A DNA stretch of 50,910 nt from a virus, in IMG/VR virus record IMGVR_UViG_3300036768_001306, positions 1 to 50,910 of that record; one strand, given 5' to 3'. A program made the position numbers and the translations under genes. Shown piece by piece: positions 27,719 through 34,663 of the stretch. Position 1 is the stretch's first letter. The number at the start of each line of letters is the position of its first letter. The notes beneath the pieces are model-generated. The model had not been told where the DNA came from and made no database searches. It saw only the letters and a program-made list of their open reading frames with translations.

Positions 27719-28003
27719 ATTACCCCCTTCTCTCCCCTATGGTTCCTTTTCCCCCCACCTCCCTCTCCCTCTACGCTCCCCTTCCCCCTCCTCTCTCTCT
27801 TTCTCTCTTCTCTCTCACACTCTCTCTTCTCTCTATCTCACTCTCTAATTCTTTAATACTTAGTATGCTTTAAGCATTCACCCCCTACCCCTTCTCACTC
27901 CCTCTCCCTCCGGTGTTATATTCACTTGCCCCCTTTTTTCTCCTTAACCCCTCTCATCCCCCTATCCCCCTCTTGTCTAATAAAATATTAGACACCCATC
28001 TCC
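27719..28003 (-). repeat. Polypurine leader of the virion operon (polypyrimidine on plus)
   Basis: About 280 nt without a gene. The plus strand is almost all C and T with CTCT and CCCC runs. On the minus strand it reads AAGCATACTAAGTA, a short AT-rich stretch, then GAGAGTGAGATAGAGAGAAG and GAGAGTGTGAGAG. The same ordered elements recur in the opposite orientation at 39828-39920. In both places they precede a large operon in its sense direction, so they may be a shared promoter or leader element. Confidence 0.7.
27975..27993. promoter_or_regulatory. Perfect palindrome GTCTAATA/TATTAGAC
   Basis: An 8-bp perfect inverted repeat with a 3-nt AAA centre within the pyrimidine tract. AT-rich in a C-rich setting; looks like an operator or a small hairpin in the virion-operon leader. 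Confidence 0.5.
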
Positions 28004-28067: not shown

Positions 28068-28096
28068 TTGACAGAATGACAGACTTGTGTTATGAT
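28068..28096 (+). promoter_or_regulatory. Sigma-70 promoter of the tRNA gene
   Basis: TTGACA (28068-28073), exactly 17 nt spacer, TATGAT (28091-28096). The predicted start is about 20 nt before the tRNA. The best canonical promoter in the window. Confidence 0.85.
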
Positions 28097-28123: not shown

Positions 28124-28200
28124 TGGGCTGTAGCTCAATCGGAGAGAGCACCCGCCTTATAAGCGGGAGGTTTCTGGTTCAACTCCAGACAGCCCAACCA
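28124..28200 (+). tRNA. tRNA-Ile(UAU)
   Basis: A complete 77-nt tRNA with encoded CCA: acceptor TGGGCTG/CAGCCCA, D stem GCTC/GAGC, anticodon stem CCCGC/GCGGG with loop CTTATAA (anticodon TAT), T arm TCTGG-TTCAACT-CCAGA. It would read AUA isoleucine codons directly, without the lysidine-modified CAU tRNA most bacteria use. The first pair is U-A, unusual for isoleucine tRNAs. It stands alone in the control region with its own promoter. Confidence 0.92.
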
Positions 28201-28535
28201 AGCGAGCGAGTGGTTTTTACTGCTGCCTAAAAGATACAACGCAGCAGCTAAGCATAGATTCTTTACGCACTGCTCAGTGCACTGAGTAAAAGTACGCAGC
28301 GAACTGAGTAAAACGCATGCTGACAACGATAGTGGTCAATGCGGTGGTTGTGAAATGTTGCGCATGTTCGTGACGGGAAATGAGGGTTTCGTGAAGTGGC
28401 AAAATTTGGTGGAGTGGTTCGCCACTGCATTTGATTCCTCGTCTCGATTTTCGGTTCCATCTAACTCGCTGTACTGCAACACCTTACGCAACGCTCTTAC
28501 GCTCTGCAGAGATTGAATCTCAGCATGTACGATTC
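28201..28535. other. Non-coding stretch after tRNA
   Basis: No convincing gene. Visible are a short palindrome GCACTGCTCAGTGC (28267-28280), the direct repeat ACTGAGTAAAA (28278-28288 and 28305-28315) and an AGTGG/CCACT inverted repeat. No clear terminator for the tRNA transcript was found. Confidence 0.5.
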
Positions 28536-28584
28536 TGTGACAATCGTCAAACTTGCGATTACATGAAAAAATCGTGAGCAAGCT

Positions 28585-28600
28585 TGGCATGCTTTTTGCG
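28585..28600 (+). promoter_or_regulatory. Sigma-54-type promoter P1 (plus)
   Basis: TGGCATG-CTTT-TTGC with exact GG-N10-GC spacing; preceded by CT as in the consensus. Directed toward the early operon. Confidence 0.75.
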
Positions 28601-28675
28601 TACATGCTAAGCTATTATGCTTCAAGCATTTACGCTTATGCTCTAAAGCATTGAGCTGCAACGGTTTACAGCATA

Positions 28676-28691
28676 AGCAAGATTCATGCCA
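28676..28691 (-). promoter_or_regulatory. Sigma-54-type promoter M1 (minus)
   Basis: Minus strand TGGCATG-AATC-TTGCT, correct spacing, directed toward the tRNA and virion operon side. Confidence 0.75.
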
Positions 28692-28787
28692 AGATTCAAG
28701 CTTGCTGTGTGATCGTGCAAAGAGCATGTCTCAACATGTGCAATATTGCGACAAATCGGTGACAATATTGTGACGGCATGCTTCGGT

Positions 28788-28803
28788 AGCAAGTCTCATG
28801 CCA
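28788..28803 (-). promoter_or_regulatory. Sigma-54-type promoter M2 (minus)
   Basis: Minus strand TGGCATG-AGAC-TTGCT, correct spacing, flanked by TCT as in M1. Confidence 0.75.
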
Positions 28804-28867
28804 AGATTCACCGTTGATGTTACAAAAACGTGACAAATCGAGCGTGATTGTCATGGTCTCAACAAGT

Positions 28868-28883
28868 TGGCATGGGTCTTGCA
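28868..28883 (+). promoter_or_regulatory. Sigma-54-type promoter P2 (plus)
   Basis: TGGCATG-GGTC-TTGCA. Its -12 element forms the palindrome TTGCATATATGCAA with that of M3. Confidence 0.78.
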
Positions 28884-28887
28884 TATA

Positions 28888-28903
28888 TGCAAAAACCGTG
28901 CCA
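28888..28903 (-). promoter_or_regulatory. Sigma-54-type promoter M3 (minus)
   Basis: Minus strand TGGCACG-GTTT-TTGCA, a perfect consensus match, facing P2. Confidence 0.8.
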
Positions 28904-28908
28904 ACGCT

Positions 28909-28924
28909 TGGCACGAAACTTGCT
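28909..28924 (+). promoter_or_regulatory. Sigma-54-type promoter P3 (plus)
   Basis: TGGCACG-AAAC-TTGCT, perfect consensus match. Confidence 0.85.
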
Positions 28925-28948
28925 ACGCGTTACAAGCGGCGTCAATCT

Positions 28949-28964
28949 TGGCACGTTGCTTGCA
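28949..28964 (+). promoter_or_regulatory. Sigma-54-type promoter P4 (plus)
   Basis: TGGCACG-TTGC-TTGCA, perfect consensus match. Its -12 element forms TTGCAATTGCAA with M4. Confidence 0.85.
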
Positions 28965-28966
28965 AT

Positions 28967-28982
28967 TGCAAGAATCGGGCCA
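28967..28982 (-). promoter_or_regulatory. Sigma-54-type promoter M4 (minus)
   Basis: Minus strand TGGCCCG-ATTC-TTGCA, one mismatch in the -24 element, facing P4. Confidence 0.65.
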
Positions 28983-29053
28983 AATTCTGGCTTTATACGT
29001 CTTAACTTTACCATTTAGGGGGTTTGGGGGGTGGCGGGGGAGGTGGTGTGTGT

Positions 29054-29187
29054 GCGTGGGTGGTGCGTGGGTGGTGCGCGGGTGCGTGGGTGGTGCGTGG
29101 GTGGTGCGCGGGTGCGTGGGTGGTGCGTGGGTGGTGCGTGGGTGGTGCGCGGGTGCGTGGGTGGTGCGTGGGTGGTGCGTGGGTGGT
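29054..29187 (+). repeat. G-rich tandem array (11-bp and 8-bp units)
   Basis: Ten copies of GCGTGGGTGGT interspersed with three copies of GCGCGGGT in the order 2+1, 2+1, 3+1, 3. The plus strand and its RNA could form G-quadruplexes. Frames through the array give low-complexity Val/Gly/Trp peptides and are not credible genes. It lies just downstream of the P4 start. Confidence 0.9.
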
Positions 29188-29226
29188 GTGGTGCTACACA
29201 CCACCACCCAACCCCAACGGTTGGGG
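29182..29226 (+). ncRNA. Two hairpins closing the G-rich array
   Basis: GGTGGTGTG pairs with CACACCACC (29182-29205), using the last array unit, and CCCCAA pairs with TTGGGG (29212-29226). In RNA these compete with G-quadruplex formation in the array. Confidence 0.55.
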
Positions 29227-29250
29227 GGTGACTACATCCAACCCCGGCTA

Positions 29251-29329
29251 GGTAGTGCGGTATGCTTTGCCACGGGAAACCGTCTCGGTTACGCTCTGGC
29301 GAGCGTCACTACCGCTGGCGCAAGAGCAT
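29251..29329 (+). ncRNA. Structured leader RNA: three-way junction with pseudoknot
   Basis: A stem GGTAGTG/CACTACC (29251-29257, 29307-29313) encloses two hairpins, AACCG/CGGTT and ACGCTC/GAGCGT. The single strand ATGCTTTGC (29262-29270) inside it can pair with GCAAGAGCAT (29320-29329) outside, a pseudoknot with one bulge. It lies upstream of the first gene's SD-proximal pseudoknot and may correspond to the first member of the tandem pairs seen further on. A strong GCCAACCG/CGGTTGGC hairpin (29379-29401 area) follows. Confidence 0.55.
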
Positions 29330-29405
29330 CGGCTACCAGTAACGGCGTGTTGGTGCGTCACCCCCCGCGGTTTCACTTGCCAACCGTGCTAGCCGGTTGG
29401 CGCAA

Positions 29406-29469
29406 GCTTGCGTCACGCAATAAACGCTCACGCACGTGACGCAAGCAAAAAAAATAAATTGCGTGAGCG
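29406..29469 (+). ncRNA. SD-proximal pseudoknot PK0
   Basis: Helix 1 GCTTGCGTCACG/CGTGACGCAAGC (12 bp). Loop bases CGCTCACGCA (29425-29434) pair with TGCGTGAGCG (29460-29469) across an A-rich 13-nt loop. The Shine-Dalgarno GAAGGGGG begins at the next base, before the ATG at 29482. Confidence 0.85.
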
Positions 29470-29481
29470 GAAGGGGGAAAC

Positions 29482-29679
29482 ATGAAAACTGCAGAGTTTG
29501 CCATCCATGAACTTCCGGAAAGCTTGCGCAAGCAAATCTTGACGCTTGCGCGAAAGCGCGCGTTGACGGCAGAGCAACGCAAAATCGCACGCGCCGTTGA
29601 CGCACTACGGCGCGCAGGGATTGACGTTGACGCGCCGGAAATTCCGCTCCCCGATTCAATCACGATCCGCTTGCGTTGA
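29482..29679 (+). CDS. Early protein, 65 aa, unknown
   Basis: First gene of the early operon. A basic, helical N-terminal two thirds (LPESLRKQILTLARKRALTAEQRKIARAV) and a short strand-like C-terminus. Not recognised; size, charge and position are typical of phage host-takeover proteins. Translation starts right behind pseudoknot PK0, and a terminator hairpin follows the stop, so it can be made as a monocistronic message from the sigma-54-type promoters. Confidence 0.75.
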   Translation: MKTAEFAIHELPESLRKQILTLARKRALTAEQRKIARAVDALRRAGIDVDAPEIPLPDSITIRLR

Positions 29680-29680
29680 T

Positions 29681-29722
29681 GGTGCAAGGGGGCTTGCTAG
29701 CGGCCCCCTTTATTTTTGCACC
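29681..29722 (+). terminator. Terminator-like hairpin A
   Basis: AAGGGGGC pairs with GCCCCCTT followed by TATTTTT, within an outer GGTGCA/TGCACC. It directly follows the stop of the first early gene. Confidence 0.75.
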
Positions 29723-29728
29723 TAGGCA

Positions 29729-29787
29729 CCTACCCGCAAGTTTTGCGAGTTTTCCTTGCGAGTAGGAAAACGCAAATAAAAACTCGC
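29729..29787 (+). ncRNA. Pseudoknot A1
   Basis: Helix 1 CCTACCCGCAAG/CTTGCGAGTAGG with one mismatch. Loop GCGAGTTTT (29745-29753) pairs with AAAACTCGC (29779-29787). First of a tandem pair. Confidence 0.75.
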
Positions 29788-29788
29788 T

Positions 29789-29855
29789 TAGCGCGCAGAA
29801 ATTTTTCCCGGTTTTGATTTTTGCGCGCTAAAAAAAATCAAAAAACAAAACCGGG
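29789..29855 (+). ncRNA. SD-proximal pseudoknot A2
   Basis: Helix 1 TAGCGCGCA/TGCGCGCTA. Loop CCCGGTTTTG (29807-29816) pairs with CAAAACCGGG (29846-29855); third loop 15 nt, nearly all A. The AGGGAGG ribosome site starts at the next base. Confidence 0.85.
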
Positions 29856-29866
29856 AGGGAGGAAAC

Positions 29867-30076
29867 ATGTACGAAGTCGTTTTGGCTCGCAAGGAGAAAA
29901 ACGGAATTTACCGTCAGGTTTTTCATGCTGTGGACAAAACGCCATGGCGAGCGAAAGAGATCGCCGTGCAGTTGAAGCTATTTCGAACCTATATGGACGG
30001 TAACAGAGAGCAAATTTTCTCGGACCTGGACGGTAAATACAAGATGTACGTAACTCGGATTGATCGTTGGTGGTAG
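29867..30076 (+). CDS. Early protein, 69 aa, unknown
   Basis: Small basic protein (MYEVVLARKEKNGIYRQVFHAV, then KYKMYVTRIDRWW) with strand-helix-strand character. Not recognised. It is framed by pseudoknot A2 upstream and a terminator-like hairpin downstream, whose first stem TTGGTGG/CCACCAA includes the stop codon. Confidence 0.75.
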   Translation: MYEVVLARKEKNGIYRQVFHAVDKTPWRAKEIAVQLKLFRTYMDGNREQIFSDLDGKYKMYVTRIDRWW

Positions 30077-30094
30077 AAAAACCCACCAATGATC

Positions 30095-30137
30095 ACGGTG
30101 CGTTTTAGGTCCGAACCCTTGCGCACCGTTTTATTTT
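30095..30137 (+). terminator. Terminator-like hairpin B
   Basis: ACGGTGCG pairs with CGCACCGT, followed by TTTATTTTTTTT and then the motif TCGTCATTTC also seen after hairpins C, E and F. Confidence 0.8.
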
Positions 30138-30150
30138 TTTTCGTCATTTC

Positions 30151-30201
30151 CTTCCACGGTTAAGCGCGGTCACCGTGGAAGAGAAAAAACAAGCACCGCG
30201 C
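30151..30201 (+). ncRNA. Pseudoknot B1
   Basis: Helix 1 CTTCCACGGT/ACCGTGGAAG. Loop GCGCGGT (30164-30170) pairs with ACCGCGC (30195-30201) across a 13-nt A-rich loop. Confidence 0.85.
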
Positions 30202-30208
30202 AAACAAT

Positions 30209-30259
30209 CTCTAGCGTATTGCCCGCGAGTACGCTAGAGAGAAAATAAAAAATCGCGGG
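30209..30259 (+). ncRNA. SD-proximal pseudoknot B2
   Basis: Helix 1 CTCTAGCGTA/TACGCTAGAG. Loop CCCGCGA (30222-30228) pairs with TCGCGGG (30253-30259), immediately followed by the AAGGAGG ribosome site. Confidence 0.88.
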
Positions 30260-30273
30260 AAGGAGGAACAAAG

Positions 30274-30585
30274 ATGAGGATTCGCACTCTGGAGTTGCAC
30301 CTTGAGTTTGACGATTTTACCTCGGATCAGCCAGAAGATCGCGTGTGGGGAGATACAACATTTCTTTCAACAAATAAATGGTCATACGGCGCGATGTTTG
30401 GAAAGGATGGGCAAACGTATATTACAATCGAGGAATTTGCCAATCCAACGCGATATGGTTGGGTCATTCTTGATGTGAATCTTGGCAGAGTAAATTACAC
30501 AGAGTGGCTACCTGGAAAACACATGCGATTGCGAGTGGCCTATGAAAGAGCAATAGTCGAGATTCACTTTCCAAAGAAACATTGA
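30274..30585 (+). CDS. Early protein, 103 aa, unknown
   Basis: Mostly beta structure (MRIRTLELHLEFDDFTS, KWSYGAMFGKDGQTYITIEE, RLRVAYERAIVEIHFPK). Aromatic-rich, no catalytic motif. It has a similar strand pattern to the 84- and 99-residue proteins that follow, so these may be distant relatives. Behind pseudoknot B2. Confidence 0.75.
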   Translation: MRIRTLELHLEFDDFTSDQPEDRVWGDTTFLSTNKWSYGAMFGKDGQTYITIEEFANPTRYGWVILDVNLGRVNYTEWLPGKHMRLRVAYERAIVEIHFPKKH

Positions 30586-30593
30586 CGCACATT

Positions 30594-30637
30594 CCCCGGG
30601 CAAGATTTTCAAATCTACCCAGGGATTAAATTTTTTC
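30594..30637 (+). terminator. Terminator-like hairpin C
   Basis: An imperfect stem with AAGATTT/AAATCT at the loop end and CCC/GGG at the base, followed by TTAAATTTTTT. The loop-end helix AGATTT/AAATCT is shared with E and F. Confidence 0.65.
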
Positions 30638-30647
30638 GTTTCTCTCG

Positions 30648-30700
30648 GCATCAAGTTTCGTGGGCGCTTGATGCTGGGGGGGTAAAAAGAAATCGCCCAC
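30648..30700 (+). ncRNA. Pseudoknot C1
   Basis: Helix 1 GCATCAAG/CTTGATGC. Loop GTGGGCG (30660-30666) pairs with CGCCCAC (30694-30700). Confidence 0.82.
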
Positions 30701-30704
30701 AATT

Positions 30705-30755
30705 CTCTAGCGCTTTAGCATCCCCGGGTGCTAGAGAAAATCTAAATGGGGGATG
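30705..30755 (+). ncRNA. SD-proximal pseudoknot C2
   Basis: Helix 1 CTCTAGC/GCTAGAG. Loop CATCCCC (30719-30725) pairs with GGGGATG (30749-30755). The following AATGGAGG contains the ribosome site. Confidence 0.85.
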
Positions 30756-30768
30756 AATGGAGGAATGG

Positions 30769-31023
30769 ATGGTAATCGAACGCAACAATCTTTATGAGTA
30801 CGAATGCGGCGCTGTTAATGTAATTTCATCGTATCGTTATGGGGAGGATTTGTATGAAATTGGAGAACTGGCCGATGATGATGCCATGGCGTTAGGGATT
30901 AACGGAAAGTACACGCATATAGATTGGAATGGCAGGCCAGCGCTCTATTCAATAACATGGAGAAAAAACTCTGCTATGGTAACATTTAGAAGTGGATACA
31001 AAATGAGTATTACATTCAAATGA
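30769..31023 (+). CDS. Early protein, 84 aa, unknown
   Basis: Beta-rich small protein with IDWNGRPALYSITWRKNSAMVTF, not recognised. Two in-frame ATGs exist: 30757 would place the GGAGG inside the gene, whereas 30769 has GGAGG five bases upstream, as after the other pseudoknots; 30769 is chosen. It is followed by a normal 22-nt spacer, not a pseudoknot. Confidence 0.7.
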   Translation: MVIERNNLYEYECGAVNVISSYRYGEDLYEIGELADDDAMALGINGKYTHIDWNGRPALYSITWRKNSAMVTFRSGYKMSITFK

Positions 31024-31045
31024 TTATAGACGGAGGTAGAGAGAA

Positions 31046-31345
31046 ATGTACATTGCATACGACGCGCAGTTGCTTACAACGTTGAGAAATATGGAGTATC
31101 ATCAAGGAGATTGGCAGTTTCCGGCAAAACTTTGGAAGTCTGGGAGATGGTTGTTCGATTTCGAACTTCCAGACTCTGAAGAATTAAATCATTGGGGAGG
31201 TGACATATACGCAAGAGTGGTTTGGACACCAAATCCGAACGATATCTACACAATTCTGTACAGAGTCCGTTTACGCAGAGACGGACAGTGGGTGATAACA
31301 CACGAAAGAAAAGATGGCGAAGGATTTGTTCGGGTGTTTGAATAA
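31046..31345 (+). CDS. Early protein, 99 aa, unknown
   Basis: Small aromatic protein (GDWQFPAKLWKSGRWLFDFELPD, YTILYRVRLRRDGQWVITHER) with a beta-sandwich look. Not recognised. It starts after GGAGGTAGAG without a pseudoknot, so it is probably co-translated with the previous gene as one unit. The stop lies inside a TTCGGGT/ACCCGAA hairpin preceding terminator E. Confidence 0.72.
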   Translation: MYIAYDAQLLTTLRNMEYHQGDWQFPAKLWKSGRWLFDFELPDSEELNHWGGDIYARVVWTPNPNDIYTILYRVRLRRDGQWVITHERKDGEGFVRVFE

Positions 31346-31361
31346 ATACCCGAACAATTCC

Positions 31362-31404
31362 CCCCGAGAAAGATTTCTAAATCTCCTCGGGGAAAATATT
31401 TTTT
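31362..31404 (+). terminator. Terminator-like hairpin E
   Basis: CCCCGAG pairs with CTCGGGG beyond an AGATTT/AAATCT helix, followed by AATATTTTTTTC. Confidence 0.75.
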
Positions 31405-31413
31405 TCATCATCT

Positions 31414-31467
31414 CCCCATATATTTTTTCGCGCGGAAATATATGGGGGGTATCGAAAAGTCGCGCGA
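31414..31467 (+). ncRNA. Pseudoknot E1
   Basis: Helix 1 CCCCATATATTT/AAATATATGGGG (12 bp). Loop TCGCGCG (31428-31434) pairs with CGCGCGA (31461-31467). Confidence 0.85.
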
Positions 31468-31470
31468 TTT

Positions 31471-31521
31471 CTCTAGCGCTTTAGAATCCCCCGGGCGTTA
31501 GAGAAAAAGATATCGGGGGAT
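31471..31521 (+). ncRNA. SD-proximal pseudoknot E2
   Basis: Helix 1 CTCTAGCG/CGTTAGAG with one G-U pair. Loop ATCCCCC (31486-31492) pairs with GGGGGAT (31515-31521), then AAAGGAGG. Confidence 0.87.
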
Positions 31522-31538
31522 AAAGGAGGAAGGCAACA

Positions 31539-31784
31539 ATGCTGGCGTTGATGAGGTTTTATGGTCCTACATACGCTCGTGGAGCTAGGTGGAAGATTGA
31601 GGATAACAAGCTTAGGACAAGATGGACAACATACAAAAATCAAGACAGTCTCAAACGGGAGGTCGAACTTGTGATGAGTGAATACAGCAAGATGGTGAAC
31701 GAGCAGCTGGAGGTGGTTGATGTTATGGACCTTCATCCGTTGATGGAAGATACAATCCTGGTTGTACTTCGAGAGCTGAAGTAA
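31539..31784 (+). CDS. Early protein, 81 aa, unknown
   Basis: Basic N-terminal half (FYGPTYARGARWKIEDNKLRTRW) and an acidic helical C-terminal half. Not recognised. Behind pseudoknot E2, with terminator-like hairpin F after the stop. Confidence 0.72.
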   Translation: MLALMRFYGPTYARGARWKIEDNKLRTRWTTYKNQDSLKREVELVMSEYSKMVNEQLEVVDVMDLHPLMEDTILVVLRELK

Positions 31785-31801
31785 CACACGACATTCTCTT
31801 T

Positions 31802-31846
31802 CCACGGGCAAGATTTTTAAATCTACCAGTGGAGATATTTTTTTTC
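31802..31846 (+). terminator. Terminator-like hairpin F
   Basis: A base stem CCAC/GTGG and inner AGATTT/AAATCT with internal mismatches, followed by TATTTTTTTTCGTCA. Confidence 0.65.
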
Positions 31847-31853
31847 GTCAATT

Positions 31854-31908
31854 CGAACACGCACTTTATGGCGCGGGGGGGCGTGTTTCGTTCGATTAGC
31901 ACGCGTCA
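31854..31908 (+). ncRNA. Pseudoknot F1
   Basis: Helix 1 CGAACACGC/GCGTGTTTCG (one bulged T). Loop TGGCGCG (31869-31875) pairs with CGCGTCA (31902-31908), one G-U. Confidence 0.75.
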
Positions 31909-31912
31909 AAAA

Positions 31913-31963
31913 CTCTAGCGCTTTAGCATCCCCGGGCGTTAGAGATAATTTATACAGGGGATG
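31913..31963 (+). ncRNA. SD-proximal pseudoknot F2
   Basis: Helix 1 CTCTAGCG/CGTTAGAG. Loop CATCCCC (31927-31933) pairs with GGGGATG (31957-31963), followed by CATGGAGGG. Confidence 0.87.
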
Positions 31964-31975
31964 CATGGAGGGTAT

Positions 31976-32245
31976 ATGGCTAATAACGTTACAGTAACTC
32001 TAAAACAGGTGAGAGAGTTTGTTTTGGGGGAACTCCGCAAGAAGGGAGATGCTGGAGCTACTCCGCTAGAACTAGGGGTCGCTTTAGAAAACTGGTTGAA
32101 GGAAAGAGGCGTGGATATAAGCAATGGAATTGGAACAATCATAGAAGCAATTATTTGGGATCCGGTGTTCAGGAAGCTGACGCGATTCGATGGTGAAAGA
32201 ACGCGTCTTGTTGAATATAAAGAGAAAGAAATGGAAAGGAGGTAA
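31976..32245 (+). CDS. Early protein, 89 aa, winged-helix-like
   Basis: The sequence VRQ-like helix TLKQVREFVLGELRKKGDAGATPLELGVAL, a second helix and a LTRFDGERTRLVEYK wing suggest a winged helix DNA-binding fold, so it may be an early transcription regulator. This is a pattern judgement without a family match. The ATG at 31976 has GGAGGG upstream; the ATG at 31961 overlaps helix 2 of the pseudoknot and is rejected. Confidence 0.68.
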   Translation: MANNVTVTLKQVREFVLGELRKKGDAGATPLELGVALENWLKERGVDISNGIGTIIEAIIWDPVFRKLTRFDGERTRLVEYKEKEMERR

Positions 32246-32250
32246 GTGCA

Positions 32251-32559
32251 ATGCTGCACGTTAGGTTTGAAGATGAGTATGCACGGCAGCTTTTGGAAAA
32301 TATTCTCAGCAATGAGTACTGGATTGAATCCAACATTCCAGACGAGCATGGACTGCTAGTTACGTTGATATCCAAGATGGGGGATGAATACTACGATCGT
32401 CCAAATGTTTACCTGATAACCTATCATGGTATTTTTGAGCCGTCTGACATATCGCTTATCCGCGGATTCATTTACGGCGGGAAGTTCTATGACCACGAGT
32501 TTTCCATGCGCACGGGGGTGTGCATGGTAGGAAGGCCTTCAGCTATCTACTGGAGGTAA
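32251..32559 (+). CDS. Early protein, 102 aa, unknown
   Basis: Mixed alpha/beta protein (EDEYARQLLENILSNEYWIES, YLITYHGIFEPSDISLIRGFIY). Not recognised. It follows the winged-helix-like gene by 5 nt with GGAGGTAAGTGCA as ribosome site and is the last of the cluster of small early genes. Confidence 0.7.
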   Translation: MLHVRFEDEYARQLLENILSNEYWIESNIPDEHGLLVTLISKMGDEYYDRPNVYLITYHGIFEPSDISLIRGFIYGGKFYDHEFSMRTGVCMVGRPSAIYWR

Positions 32560-32577
32560 GAAAAAACACATAAACCA

Positions 32578-32634
32578 GCACCCCCGGGTATCTCCCCGCG
32601 GTACTCGGGGGTGCAAATATTTTAACACGCGGGG
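32578..32634 (+). ncRNA. SD-proximal pseudoknot G (single)
   Basis: Helix 1 GCACCCCCGGGTA/TACTCGGGGGTGC (13 pairs, one G-U). Loop CCCCGCG (32594-32600) pairs with CGCGGGG (32628-32634), followed by AAAGGAGG. No terminator hairpin and no first pseudoknot precede it. Confidence 0.88.
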
Positions 32635-32647
32635 AAAGGAGGAAAGT

Positions 32648-34663
32648 ATGAAGAACATCGGTGTGTGTGGGTCTAGCACTCGTAAGTGGTTTGTTCCCAC
32701 CAATCCCGGAGAGAATTTCCCGAACGTGCACCTCGAAATGAAATATGGGGAATACGAAGTAGAGGAATCGCCGTACCACGCGACTTATTACTCGACATTT
32801 GAGCAGGCTTTCGATGCTTTTCGTCAGCTTGTAGGCGAAATCCGCTTCCCCCAAACCCAAAAAATTCAAGGGCTACTGCACTGCCGAATTCCGGGCGTTC
32901 CCTTCCAGGGATTCATTTGGATTGATAGTGAGGAAGATGTTCCATTCGCATGGGAATGGGCATCTAAATACTATGGACGTGTTTTCGCACGCCCGTGCCC
33001 ACTCATTCCTCGACATGGGTTTGTGGAAAGCCGTGAAATCCATAGTGAGCAACAGCTGCGAGAGTTGCTTGCTGAAGTAAAGCAGGCAGATCCTGATGGC
33101 GAGATTTTGCTCACGTCTCTGATTGAAGCTGATTGGAATGCCATTTATACAAATGGCATGATTTACATTGGGCGCGGTCATGATGGTGCGACTGCTGGAA
33201 AAGCGGTGAAGTTCTTCCCGGTTTCTGAACCGGTTATTTTCGGATGGAAGTATGATTGGGGAACTCCATTTGTTGAGCTGGTGCGTGGTGCTACTGGATG
33301 GATTACCACGCAGTTCCGTGGGGGCCCAAAGGTTGAAGCAAAGCGCGATTTTATTCCACATGAAATTGTGGTTCGTGAAGTGATTTGGGTTGACCCAGAT
33401 CATGTAGATGCTCTTGAATGGGAGAGAAGAATGAAATCTCTCCCGGAGGGAGTAGTTGTTTATCACCCCGGGGGATCGCTTACGTGCCACACAGCAATTC
33501 ATGCGATTATTAACAAGGTTCCATACATAACTTCTTTCGAGCCGAAGGTGGGGGATACTCTCTCGCCAACGCAGCAAGTGAATCTTAAGACTCCACATTG
33601 GAAGCAATACTTTCTGGCGGGGTTTAAGCTTACATGCTCGATGGTTGATAGGTGGAAGGCGCCTGAGACTGCGAAAATGGCGATATACGCCTTCCACCAT
33701 CTCTCAACGTCCTCGGAGGTTTCGCATAGACAGCTCGCCGCATTTTTCGCTGGCGTGTGGGCTCGCTTGGGAGCCGCATTGGTTCTCGGTGAACAGCGGC
33801 ATCATGGACAGGCGATTCATTACTATGACAATTGCAAATTGTTCGAGAGTGGGAAGGATAGAAGCGAAGTTTATGAGGAGACAGTGTACTACAGTGATGC
33901 TGAGCTATTGCAGAAACTGCAAATCGCTATTAGGTGTATGTCGCACTGCCGCTGGCACCACCAGTATGGGGGTAAAAAGTGGGCTCGTTGCGGAAAGAGC
34001 GTACTAAAGATGATCAAGGCGTGCAGGTACGAAACGCTAATCGGGCACTGGAATAACTCGGTAAACCTGGCGCATAATGGAGGGTGGTGGTTCAACAAGC
34101 TATTGTACAAGGCGGATTTTGACCGTATGGGGGATGATTTCGCCACCCAACTCCACATCATCCCGGAGTTGGTGTGTACAACCGAATGGATTGAGCAAAT
34201 TCAAGGAGAAATTCTACGACAGAAAGCACACCCCTCGAAACTCTTAGACATTCAGCAGTCTCAAGGGCGTATAATAAAGCGCTTGCTGACCGCTTCTTCG
34301 CTCAATATCACCTCCGTGCTCAGCGGGGCAATCAACTACGCGGAGTGGAAATACGAGGAGTTCGGTGAAGAGGCTAGATGGCGGTTTGTTGATACGAAAG
34401 ATATCAAGCTGCAATTCAGGTACAATCACAGGCACAGCATCATTCTGAACCTCACGGAGGAAATCAGGCAGCAAATTCTGGAGGTTTGTGGCGATAATCA
34501 TGAAGAGCTGTTCACACTCCCATCTCTTGCTGGATCGTCAGCGCTTTACGCTCCAGCGAAAGTATATCTCAACACGCAGCCTGATTATAAAGGGCACCGC
34601 GTGGTAATCAAGCTGTGTGTTGGGAGGGGGTCTGTAGCCATCGTTGCAGATTCTAAGTGGTGA
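32648..34663 (+). CDS. Large early protein with ATP-grasp-like and phosphohistidine-swivel-like domains
   Basis: A 671-residue protein. Residues 273-305 (YHPGGSLTCHTAIHA, then VPYIT and VGD) match the phosphohistidine swivel of PEP-utilising enzymes (PEP synthase, PPDK, rifampin phosphotransferase), with His281 as the phospho-accepting residue. Upstream, residues 100-240 (VFARPCPLIPRHGF, ILLTSLIEADWNAIYTNG, GRGHDGATAGK) have ATP-grasp character. Residues 320-671 are helical, Trp- and His-rich (CMSHCRWHHQYGGKKWARCG) and unlike known partner domains. I infer an ATP-driven phosphotransferase acting on a host molecule. It has a private pseudoknot leader and is followed by a phosphatase gene. Confidence 0.75.
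   Translation: MKNIGVCGSSTRKWFVPTNPGENFPNVHLEMKYGEYEVEESPYHATYYSTFEQAFDAFRQLVGEIRFPQTQKIQGLLHCRIPGVPFQGFIWIDSEEDVPFAWEWASKYYGRVFARPCPLIPRHGFVESREIHSEQQLRELLAEVKQADPDGEILLTSLIEADWNAIYTNGMIYIGRGHDGATAGKAVKFFPVSEPVIFGWKYDWGTPFVELVRGATGWITTQFRGGPKVEAKRDFIPHEIVVREVIWVDPDHVDALEWERRMKSLPEGVVVYHPGGSLTCHTAIHAIINKVPYITSFEPKVGDTLSPTQQVNLKTPHWKQYFLAGFKLTCSMVDRWKAPETAKMAIYAFHHLSTSSEVSHRQLAAFFAGVWARLGAALVLGEQRHHGQAIHYYDNCKLFESGKDRSEVYEETVYYSDAELLQKLQIAIRCMSHCRWHHQYGGKKWARCGKSVLKMIKACRYETLIGHWNNSVNLAHNGGWWFNKLLYKADFDRMGDDFATQLHIIPELVCTTEWIEQIQGEILRQKAHPSKLLDIQQSQGRIIKRLLTASSLNITSVLSGAINYAEWKYEEFGEEARWRFVDTKDIKLQFRYNHRHSIILNLTEEIRQQILEVCGDNHEELFTLPSLAGSSALYAPAKVYLNTQPDYKGHRVVIKLCVGRGSVAIVADSKW

Follow-up and report, generated by a model that had tools for sequence, protein, structure and literature searches.

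An uncultured phage, represented by a 50.9-kb IMG/VR virus record (IMGVR_UViG_3300036768_001306, here called the window and analysed over its full length), has 12 H-type RNA pseudoknots (PKs) in the leaders of its first early genes; they were drawn by hand and by script on the + strand at 29406-32635. Their fold, their nature as + strand RNA, their contact with Shine-Dalgarno (SD) sites, the tandem order of a first and a second pseudoknot (PK1-PK2) and the hairpin with a U-run upstream of each tandem pair are evident from the sequence and its statistics. As to function, we tentatively put forward a model for these self-contained elements of the first early mRNAs that combines mRNA processing, a barrier at the 5' end and an open SD, a reading that we find plausible and somewhat short of probable.

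Pseudoknots of the early leaders

The 12 elements have a common geometry, with a first stem (S1) of 10-15 bp, a first loop (L1) of 1-7 nt, a second stem (S2) of 7-10 bp, a second loop (L2) of 0-2 nt and a third loop (L3) of 7-15 nt. PK0 (29406..29469) consists of S1 29406-29417/29435-29446 (12 bp) and S2 29425-29434/29460-29469 (10 bp), with an L1 of 7 nt and an A-rich L3 of 13 nt, and the SD of gene 1 begins 1 nt after it. Gene A is preceded by PK A1 (29729..29787; S1 29729-29740/29755-29766, S2 29745-29753/29779-29787) and PK A2 (29789..29855; S1 29789-29801/29818-29830, 13 bp; S2 29807-29816/29846-29855, 10 bp), the latter with AAAAAAAUCAAAAAA as its L3 and abutting the SD. The corresponding elements of gene B are PK B1 (30147..30201; S1 30147-30160/30172-30185, S2 30164-30170/30195-30201) and PK B2 (30208..30259; S1 30208-30218/30230-30240, S2 30222-30228/30253-30259), which also abuts the SD. 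PK C1 (30642..30700; S1 30642-30655/30667-30680, 14 bp including 3 G-U pairs; S2 30660-30666/30694-30700) is followed by PK C2 (30703..30755; S1 30703-30714/30727-30738, S2 30719-30725/30749-30755), with the SD of gene C 2-3 nt further on. Upstream of gene E lie PK E1 (31412..31467; S1 31412-31426/31435-31449, 15 bp; S2 31428-31434/31461-31467) and PK E2 (31468..31521; S1 31468-31479/31495-31506, S2 31486-31493/31514-31521), the SD following after 1 nt; the L3 of E2 is short (7 nt) unless the outer S1 pairs open. PK F1, the weakest (31855..31908; S1 31855-31865/31878-31888, S2 31869-31875/31902-31908), precedes PK F2 (31912..31964; S1 31912-31922/31935-31945, S2 31926-31933/31957-31964), and the SD of gene F lies 1-2 nt on. 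The single PK G, the strongest (32578..32635; S1 32578-32590/32602-32614, 13 bp; S2 32593-32600/32628-32635), abuts the SD of a 671-aa gene.

Four of these elements, B2, C2, E2 and F2, are sequence paralogues (repeat family D2), so that the 12 PKs are not 12 independent cases, while the PK1 sequences of the tandem pairs have nothing in common except their fold. An initial annotation of this DNA took the differing S2 sequences as compensatory change within one genome. This is true of the four paralogues to the extent that both partners differ in two base pairs (a level attained in 37 of 500 shuffles), but the other elements share geometry and not sequence, and they show a recurring structure, not inherited covariation.

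Statistical support and RNA nature

A PK scan that scores pairs of stacked helices and restricts the loops to set lengths was run on 29406-32650, with dinucleotide shuffles as the null; the PK energies are approximate, and the leader evidence comes from one genome. In these 3.2 kb the scan finds 11 non-overlapping PKs at ≤-30 kcal/mol against 0.035 per shuffle, 10 at -33 kcal/mol (shuffles 0.005) and 8 at -36 kcal/mol (shuffles 0), and on the + strand outside this region it finds a single PK at ≤-30 kcal/mol. The 12 PKs of one geometry proposed in the initial annotation can thus all be drawn where it placed them, far above the shuffled expectation, and have the two interleaved helices, short L1 and sufficiently long L3 that define the H-type class. 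When S1 is kept and shuffling is confined to the 3' flank, S2 taken over all elements surpasses the random expectation (Fisher p ~3e-10, a value that assumes independent elements, an assumption violated by B2, C2, E2 and F2); individually S2 is non-significant in C2 (0.25), F1 (0.32) and B1 (0.09), and C1 is only partly captured. By a simple energy rule with a pseudoknot penalty of 9.6 kcal/mol, 11 of the 12 elements are more stable as a PK than in their best nested fold, by 7.8-15 kcal/mol, the gain for F1 being just 1.6 kcal/mol.

The stems of all 12 PKs contain 16 G-U pairs and 2 A-C mismatches, an excess indicating that pairing is preserved in the + strand RNA. L1 is shorter than L3 in every element (12/12), and the loops differ in composition, L3 being 61% A and L1 60% U in a region with 30% A; an A-rich L3 is typical of PKs with minor-groove contacts. 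Since L1 crosses the deep groove of S2 and L3 has to span an S1 of 10-15 bp, the opposite-strand order is sterically impossible for most of the PKs. Selection acts on the + strand RNA, and the order with L1 shorter than L3 is the only sterically sensible one for a right-handed H-type fold with an S1 of this length.

The same evidence bears on the idea that the elements are overlapping DNA palindromes, either operators or remnants of duplication, with an accidental likeness to PKs. Paralogous and inverted repeats do occur in the region, but palindromes in DNA would be strand-neutral, whereas the G-U bias and the loop asymmetry in 12 of 12 elements point to + strand RNA, and the partners of S2 are better than chance when S1 is held constant. 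On these grounds the palindrome reading is rejected, being largely refuted and of very low probability.

Placement against Shine-Dalgarno sites

A search for a PK followed by an SD within 8 nt and then a start codon returns exactly seven matches on the + strand of the window, namely PK0, A2, B2, C2, E2, F2 and G (shuffle mean 0.7), and in 661 kb of other strands nine scattered matches, nearly all of them weaker or within genes. The gap between the end of S2 and the SD is 0-3 nt in all seven, and the remaining five PKs (A1, B1, C1, E1 and F1) lie 0-6 nt 5' of an SD-linked PK. Both statements of the initial annotation on placement, that seven PKs end just before an SD and that five sit directly upstream of these, are therefore borne out. 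Forcing the PKs to form raises SD accessibility in five of the seven leaders (for example from 0.15 to 0.48 for gene B, from 0.20 to 0.79 for gene F and from 0.63 to 0.94 for the 671-aa gene behind PK G), values for which there is no null model.

Two further structures adjoin these leaders. At 29802-29860, in the A2 leader only, a longer 15-bp S2 variant (UUUUUCCCGG.../CAAAACCGGGAGGGA) would cover the SD at the cost of S1, and is a possible switch. The untranslated stretch just 5' of PK0 (29195-29405) folds strongly (z -2.4) and may hold further structured RNA.

Terminator-like hairpins and cassette structure

All five tandem PK pairs have a hairpin with a U-run 5-11 nt upstream, where the preceding gene ends, a feature absent from the initial annotation and new here. 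On the + strand these hairpins lie at 29685..29717 (gene 1 to PK A1; fold z -2.9), 30094..30141 (gene A to PK B1; fold z -4.5), 30593..30636 (gene B to PK C1), 31360..31405 (gene D to PK E1) and 31799..31846 (gene E to PK F1), the last three belonging to repeat family D3. Each consists of a G+C-rich hairpin followed by a U-run, as in intrinsic terminators (fold z -2.7 to -4.5). In a strict terminator scan the first of them alone passes, and the hairpins before the C, E and F pairs have imperfect U-tracts. Genes inside the units (gene D and the gene starting at 32251) have neither a hairpin with U-run nor a PK, and from 40 kb onwards, downstream of the gene behind PK G, the early region has no excess of terminator-like sites and no SD-linked PKs.

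The three D3 hairpins together with the B2/C2/E2/F2 repeats imply that whole cassettes were copied. Because a hairpin and U-run stand directly before each tandem pair, there is no room for a promoter in between, and a conserved promoter hidden within PK1 is unlikely, as the PK1 sequences are unrelated. The best candidate for the early promoter is a σ70-type sequence on the + strand at 28068..28096 (TTGACA-N17-TATGAT), which aligns with TTGACA-N17-TATAAT in the two closest related contigs (L003 and L004) and is preserved in L004 despite the absence there of the downstream tRNA-Ile(TAT) gene. It is the probable early promoter, with a leader of ~1.4 kb, and it probably reads through the whole PK array. 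Between this promoter and the first genes, 28500-28980 is dense in TTGGCA/TGCCAA inverted repeats and GTGACAAT repeats and looks like operator or iteron DNA. It is followed at 29010-29195 by a G-rich array in which units of 11 and 8 nt (GTGCGTGGGTG/GTGGGTGGTGCG) are repeated in tandem and then by a hairpin (29202-29230), beyond the ends of the relatives' contigs; the array is possibly an origin, a G-quadruplex or an assembly-breaking repeat.

Proposed function of the leaders

In the proposed model, one early promoter ~1.4 kb upstream would produce a long transcript extending past the hairpins, which, given a single promoter, must be passed or leaky. The U-rich single-stranded linkers would be cut by an enzyme of the RNase E or Y type, for which a U-rich single strand between two structures is suited; RNase Y prefers AU-rich single strands beside, and perhaps 5' of, a structure (PMC3997798). 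Each freed mRNA would begin with a double pseudoknot and end in a hairpin, and the pseudoknots may block 5'-end-dependent decay, e.g. by RNase J. Stabilization of mRNA by a 5' structure is known (PMC3997798), and compact folded RNA, of a fold different from the H-type PK, can halt RNase J1 (PMC5760640). The last pseudoknot would sequester the upstream sequence and so leave the SD free, and small early proteins are predicted to be strongly translated as a result, also when the temperature is elevated.

The surroundings of the PKs favour end protection and insulation of the ribosome-binding site (RBS) over the other functions listed in the initial annotation, with a translational operator as a possible function. 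A more general claim is that the early region is a string of cassettes, each [3' hairpin + U-run]-[PK1]-[PK2]-SD-gene, in which the tandem PKs are a sequence-independent 5' cap and translation insulator and one transcript is cut into equally protected single-gene mRNAs; this we consider possible but on the doubtful side.

Several points weigh against the proposed model. Forcing the PKs brings no gain in SD accessibility for genes 1 and C, and PK0 and PK G have no upstream hairpin, so that segmentation of the transcript falls short of all seven leaders. The model presumes an RNase J, E or Y in the host, and the leaders are known from one genome, no relative carrying them having been found. Furthermore, RNase J1 is stopped by flaviviral RNAs with a ring-shaped fold, which is not that of a simple H-type PK (PMC5760640).

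Alternative explanations

The leaders may instead form a translational operator regulon, in which a phage or host protein, such as the SSB-like product encoded at ~35.6 kb, would bind the PK shape and shut off several early genes in the manner of T4 gp32. In T4, T2 and RB69 the SD of gene 32 is likewise preceded by an H-type PK whose stems are coaxial, recognition by gp32 is relaxed in sequence and strict in structure (PMC535899), and in the window PKs touch the SD of seven genes and keep their shape and not their sequence. However, gene 32 is one gene with one PK of ~28 nt at the mRNA 5' end, ~40-67 nt from the start and separated from it by an unstructured linker (PMC535899, PMC3014915), and it has no known second PK, whereas the window phage has 12 larger PKs, arranged in tandem and directly adjacent to the SD of seven genes. 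The long unstructured A/U-rich stretch with UUAAA repeats that gp32 needs between PK and RBS has no room in these leaders, where the SD follows S2 after 0-3 nt, and according to the scan the leader of the SSB-like gene itself is without a PK. We regard an operator as a rather unlikely explanation. Transcription control, with the PKs acting as antiterminators in the nascent RNA so that polymerase would pass the next terminator-like hairpin, would fit the alternation of such hairpins with PKs and the lack of promoter space between them. The put RNA of phage HK022 is likewise a cis-acting structured RNA found in early phage leaders near terminators, and it contains a triplex (PMC9378689). But put consists of two stem-loops of ~70 nt that are not at an SD, its copies are alike in sequence, and a single copy per operon works over at least 10 kb, so that one copy would do (PMC9378689); the PKs have unrelated sequences. 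Antitermination also leaves the exact contact between PK and SD unexplained and sits poorly with the imperfect U-tracts of the C, E and F hairpins, and we regard it as an improbable alternative.

A riboswitch-like or thermosensor function, in which S2 would respond to a ligand or to temperature, has a precedent in the SAM-II and preQ1-II riboswitches, which use SD-adjacent PKs. In the window the SD lies outside the PK, loops and stems vary freely with no conserved unpaired core, and there is no Rfam match for the PKs; we regard sensing as very unlikely. With a gene behind them and a terminator-like hairpin close by, the tandem H-type PKs also recall the ToxI RNA of type III toxin-antitoxin systems, which forms A-minor contacts. 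ToxI PKs are short repeats with an S1 of 4 bp and are bound by the toxin ToxN (PMC8860590), whereas the S1 of the window PKs is 10-15 bp, the elements are not near-identical repeats, the hairpin is upstream of the PKs rather than between PK and gene, and no ToxN-like product is found in Pfam, PHROGs or PADLOC. The toxin-antitoxin reading is rejected for want of a ToxN-like toxin and of near-identical repeats, and its probability is close to nil.

Comparison with known RNAs and searches for similar elements

Frameshift PKs of the infectious bronchitis virus (IBV) type resemble the elements described here in their long S1 of about one helical turn and their long L3 in the shallow groove, but are located within a coding overlap behind a slippery site, whereas those of the window occupy leaders and precede the start codon. 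Exonuclease-resistant RNAs (xrRNAs) and bacterial 5' stabilisers share with the proposed model a block to 5'-to-3' decay, the flaviviral copies being tandem and able to halt RNase J1; xrRNAs are, however, ring-like folds in the 3' untranslated regions of RNA viruses, and in bacteria the stabilising element is a hairpin or a bound ribosome (PMC5760640, PMC3997798).

The statement of the initial annotation that no family of this layout has been described agrees with our searches. The sole Rfam match above the gathering threshold in the whole window is the tRNA at 28124, and no PK family is matched. BLAST of the region against INPHARED gives no match (for a single leader, chance matches only), as does BLAST of one leader against PLSDB. 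An Infernal model (R1) built from B2, C2, E2 and F2 recovers its own four members only and nothing convincing elsewhere, and no paper describing such PK leaders was found in a literature search. A PK in a phage mRNA leader is already known; the number, the tandem design and the cassette structure are not.

Thermus phage P23-45, HK022 and Geobacillus TP-84 served as control phages. P23-45 (57% GC) has many chance PKs, and a candidate before its DnaB gene was rejected as chance because of its mismatched S2 and lack of an A-rich loop.

Early genes and relatives

The window contains a leftward structural half with head and packaging genes (terminase, portal and protease) and, rightward from 29.4 kb, early and replication genes that include Erf-like, primase, DnaD-like and DnaB-like genes. 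The genes behind the PKs, all on the + strand, are gene 1 (29482..29679, 65 aa), gene A (29867..30076, 69 aa), gene B (30274..30585, 103 aa), gene C (30769..31023, likely start 30769), gene E (31539..31784, 81 aa) and gene F (31976..32245, likely start 31976), none of them with an assigned family, and the 671-aa gene (32648..34663). Gene D (31046-31345) follows gene C, and the gene at 32251-32559 follows gene F, both without a PK. The eight early open reading frames are all best in their own frame by a codon score that was trained on the remaining genes of the phage, and have no Pfam, PADLOC or above-noise PHROG match.

The 671-aa gene has distant homologues, without assigned function, in about a dozen other phages. 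In one of them (L010) the order of terminase, small early genes, 671-aa gene homologue and a dual-specificity phosphatase-like gene is conserved; the phosphatase-like gene adjoins the 671-aa gene in the window phage and in MW202742. Single-protein queries and a DNA pattern for the early region in IMG/VR yielded one distant homologue (L002) and no sequence with the leaders, and scans of genome contigs for relatives were empty. No PK cluster at SDs occurs in L002, L010 or the contigs with 671-aa gene homologues (L011-L021, one of which is the L002 contig again), and the layout therefore looks like a lineage feature.

L003 and L004, found via the terminase (93-94% identity), have 85% DNA identity with the window; they span the structural half only, and both stop at window ~28.3-28.5 kb, short of the leaders. 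L003 comes from the Chocolate Pots hot spring in Yellowstone (IMG taxon 3300010938; 38-52 °C), so that the window phage likely originates from a warm spring. A long pyrimidine-rich stretch at 27720-27990, which is the purine-rich leader of the leftward late genes, is kept in both contigs, and an inverted repeat (TGTCTAATA/TATTAGACA) lies near it.

Biological significance

Twelve PKs, in tandem and adjoining the ribosome sites of seven genes, would indicate that phages can use PKs as a standard part of their leaders. Should the tandem PKs indeed cap the 5' ends, bacterial viruses would have an equivalent of exonuclease-resistant RNAs, and the PKs could be useful as heat-stable expression parts. 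Since roughly a dozen natural variants share the geometry and differ in sequence, the array makes the rule of shape versus sequence directly testable.

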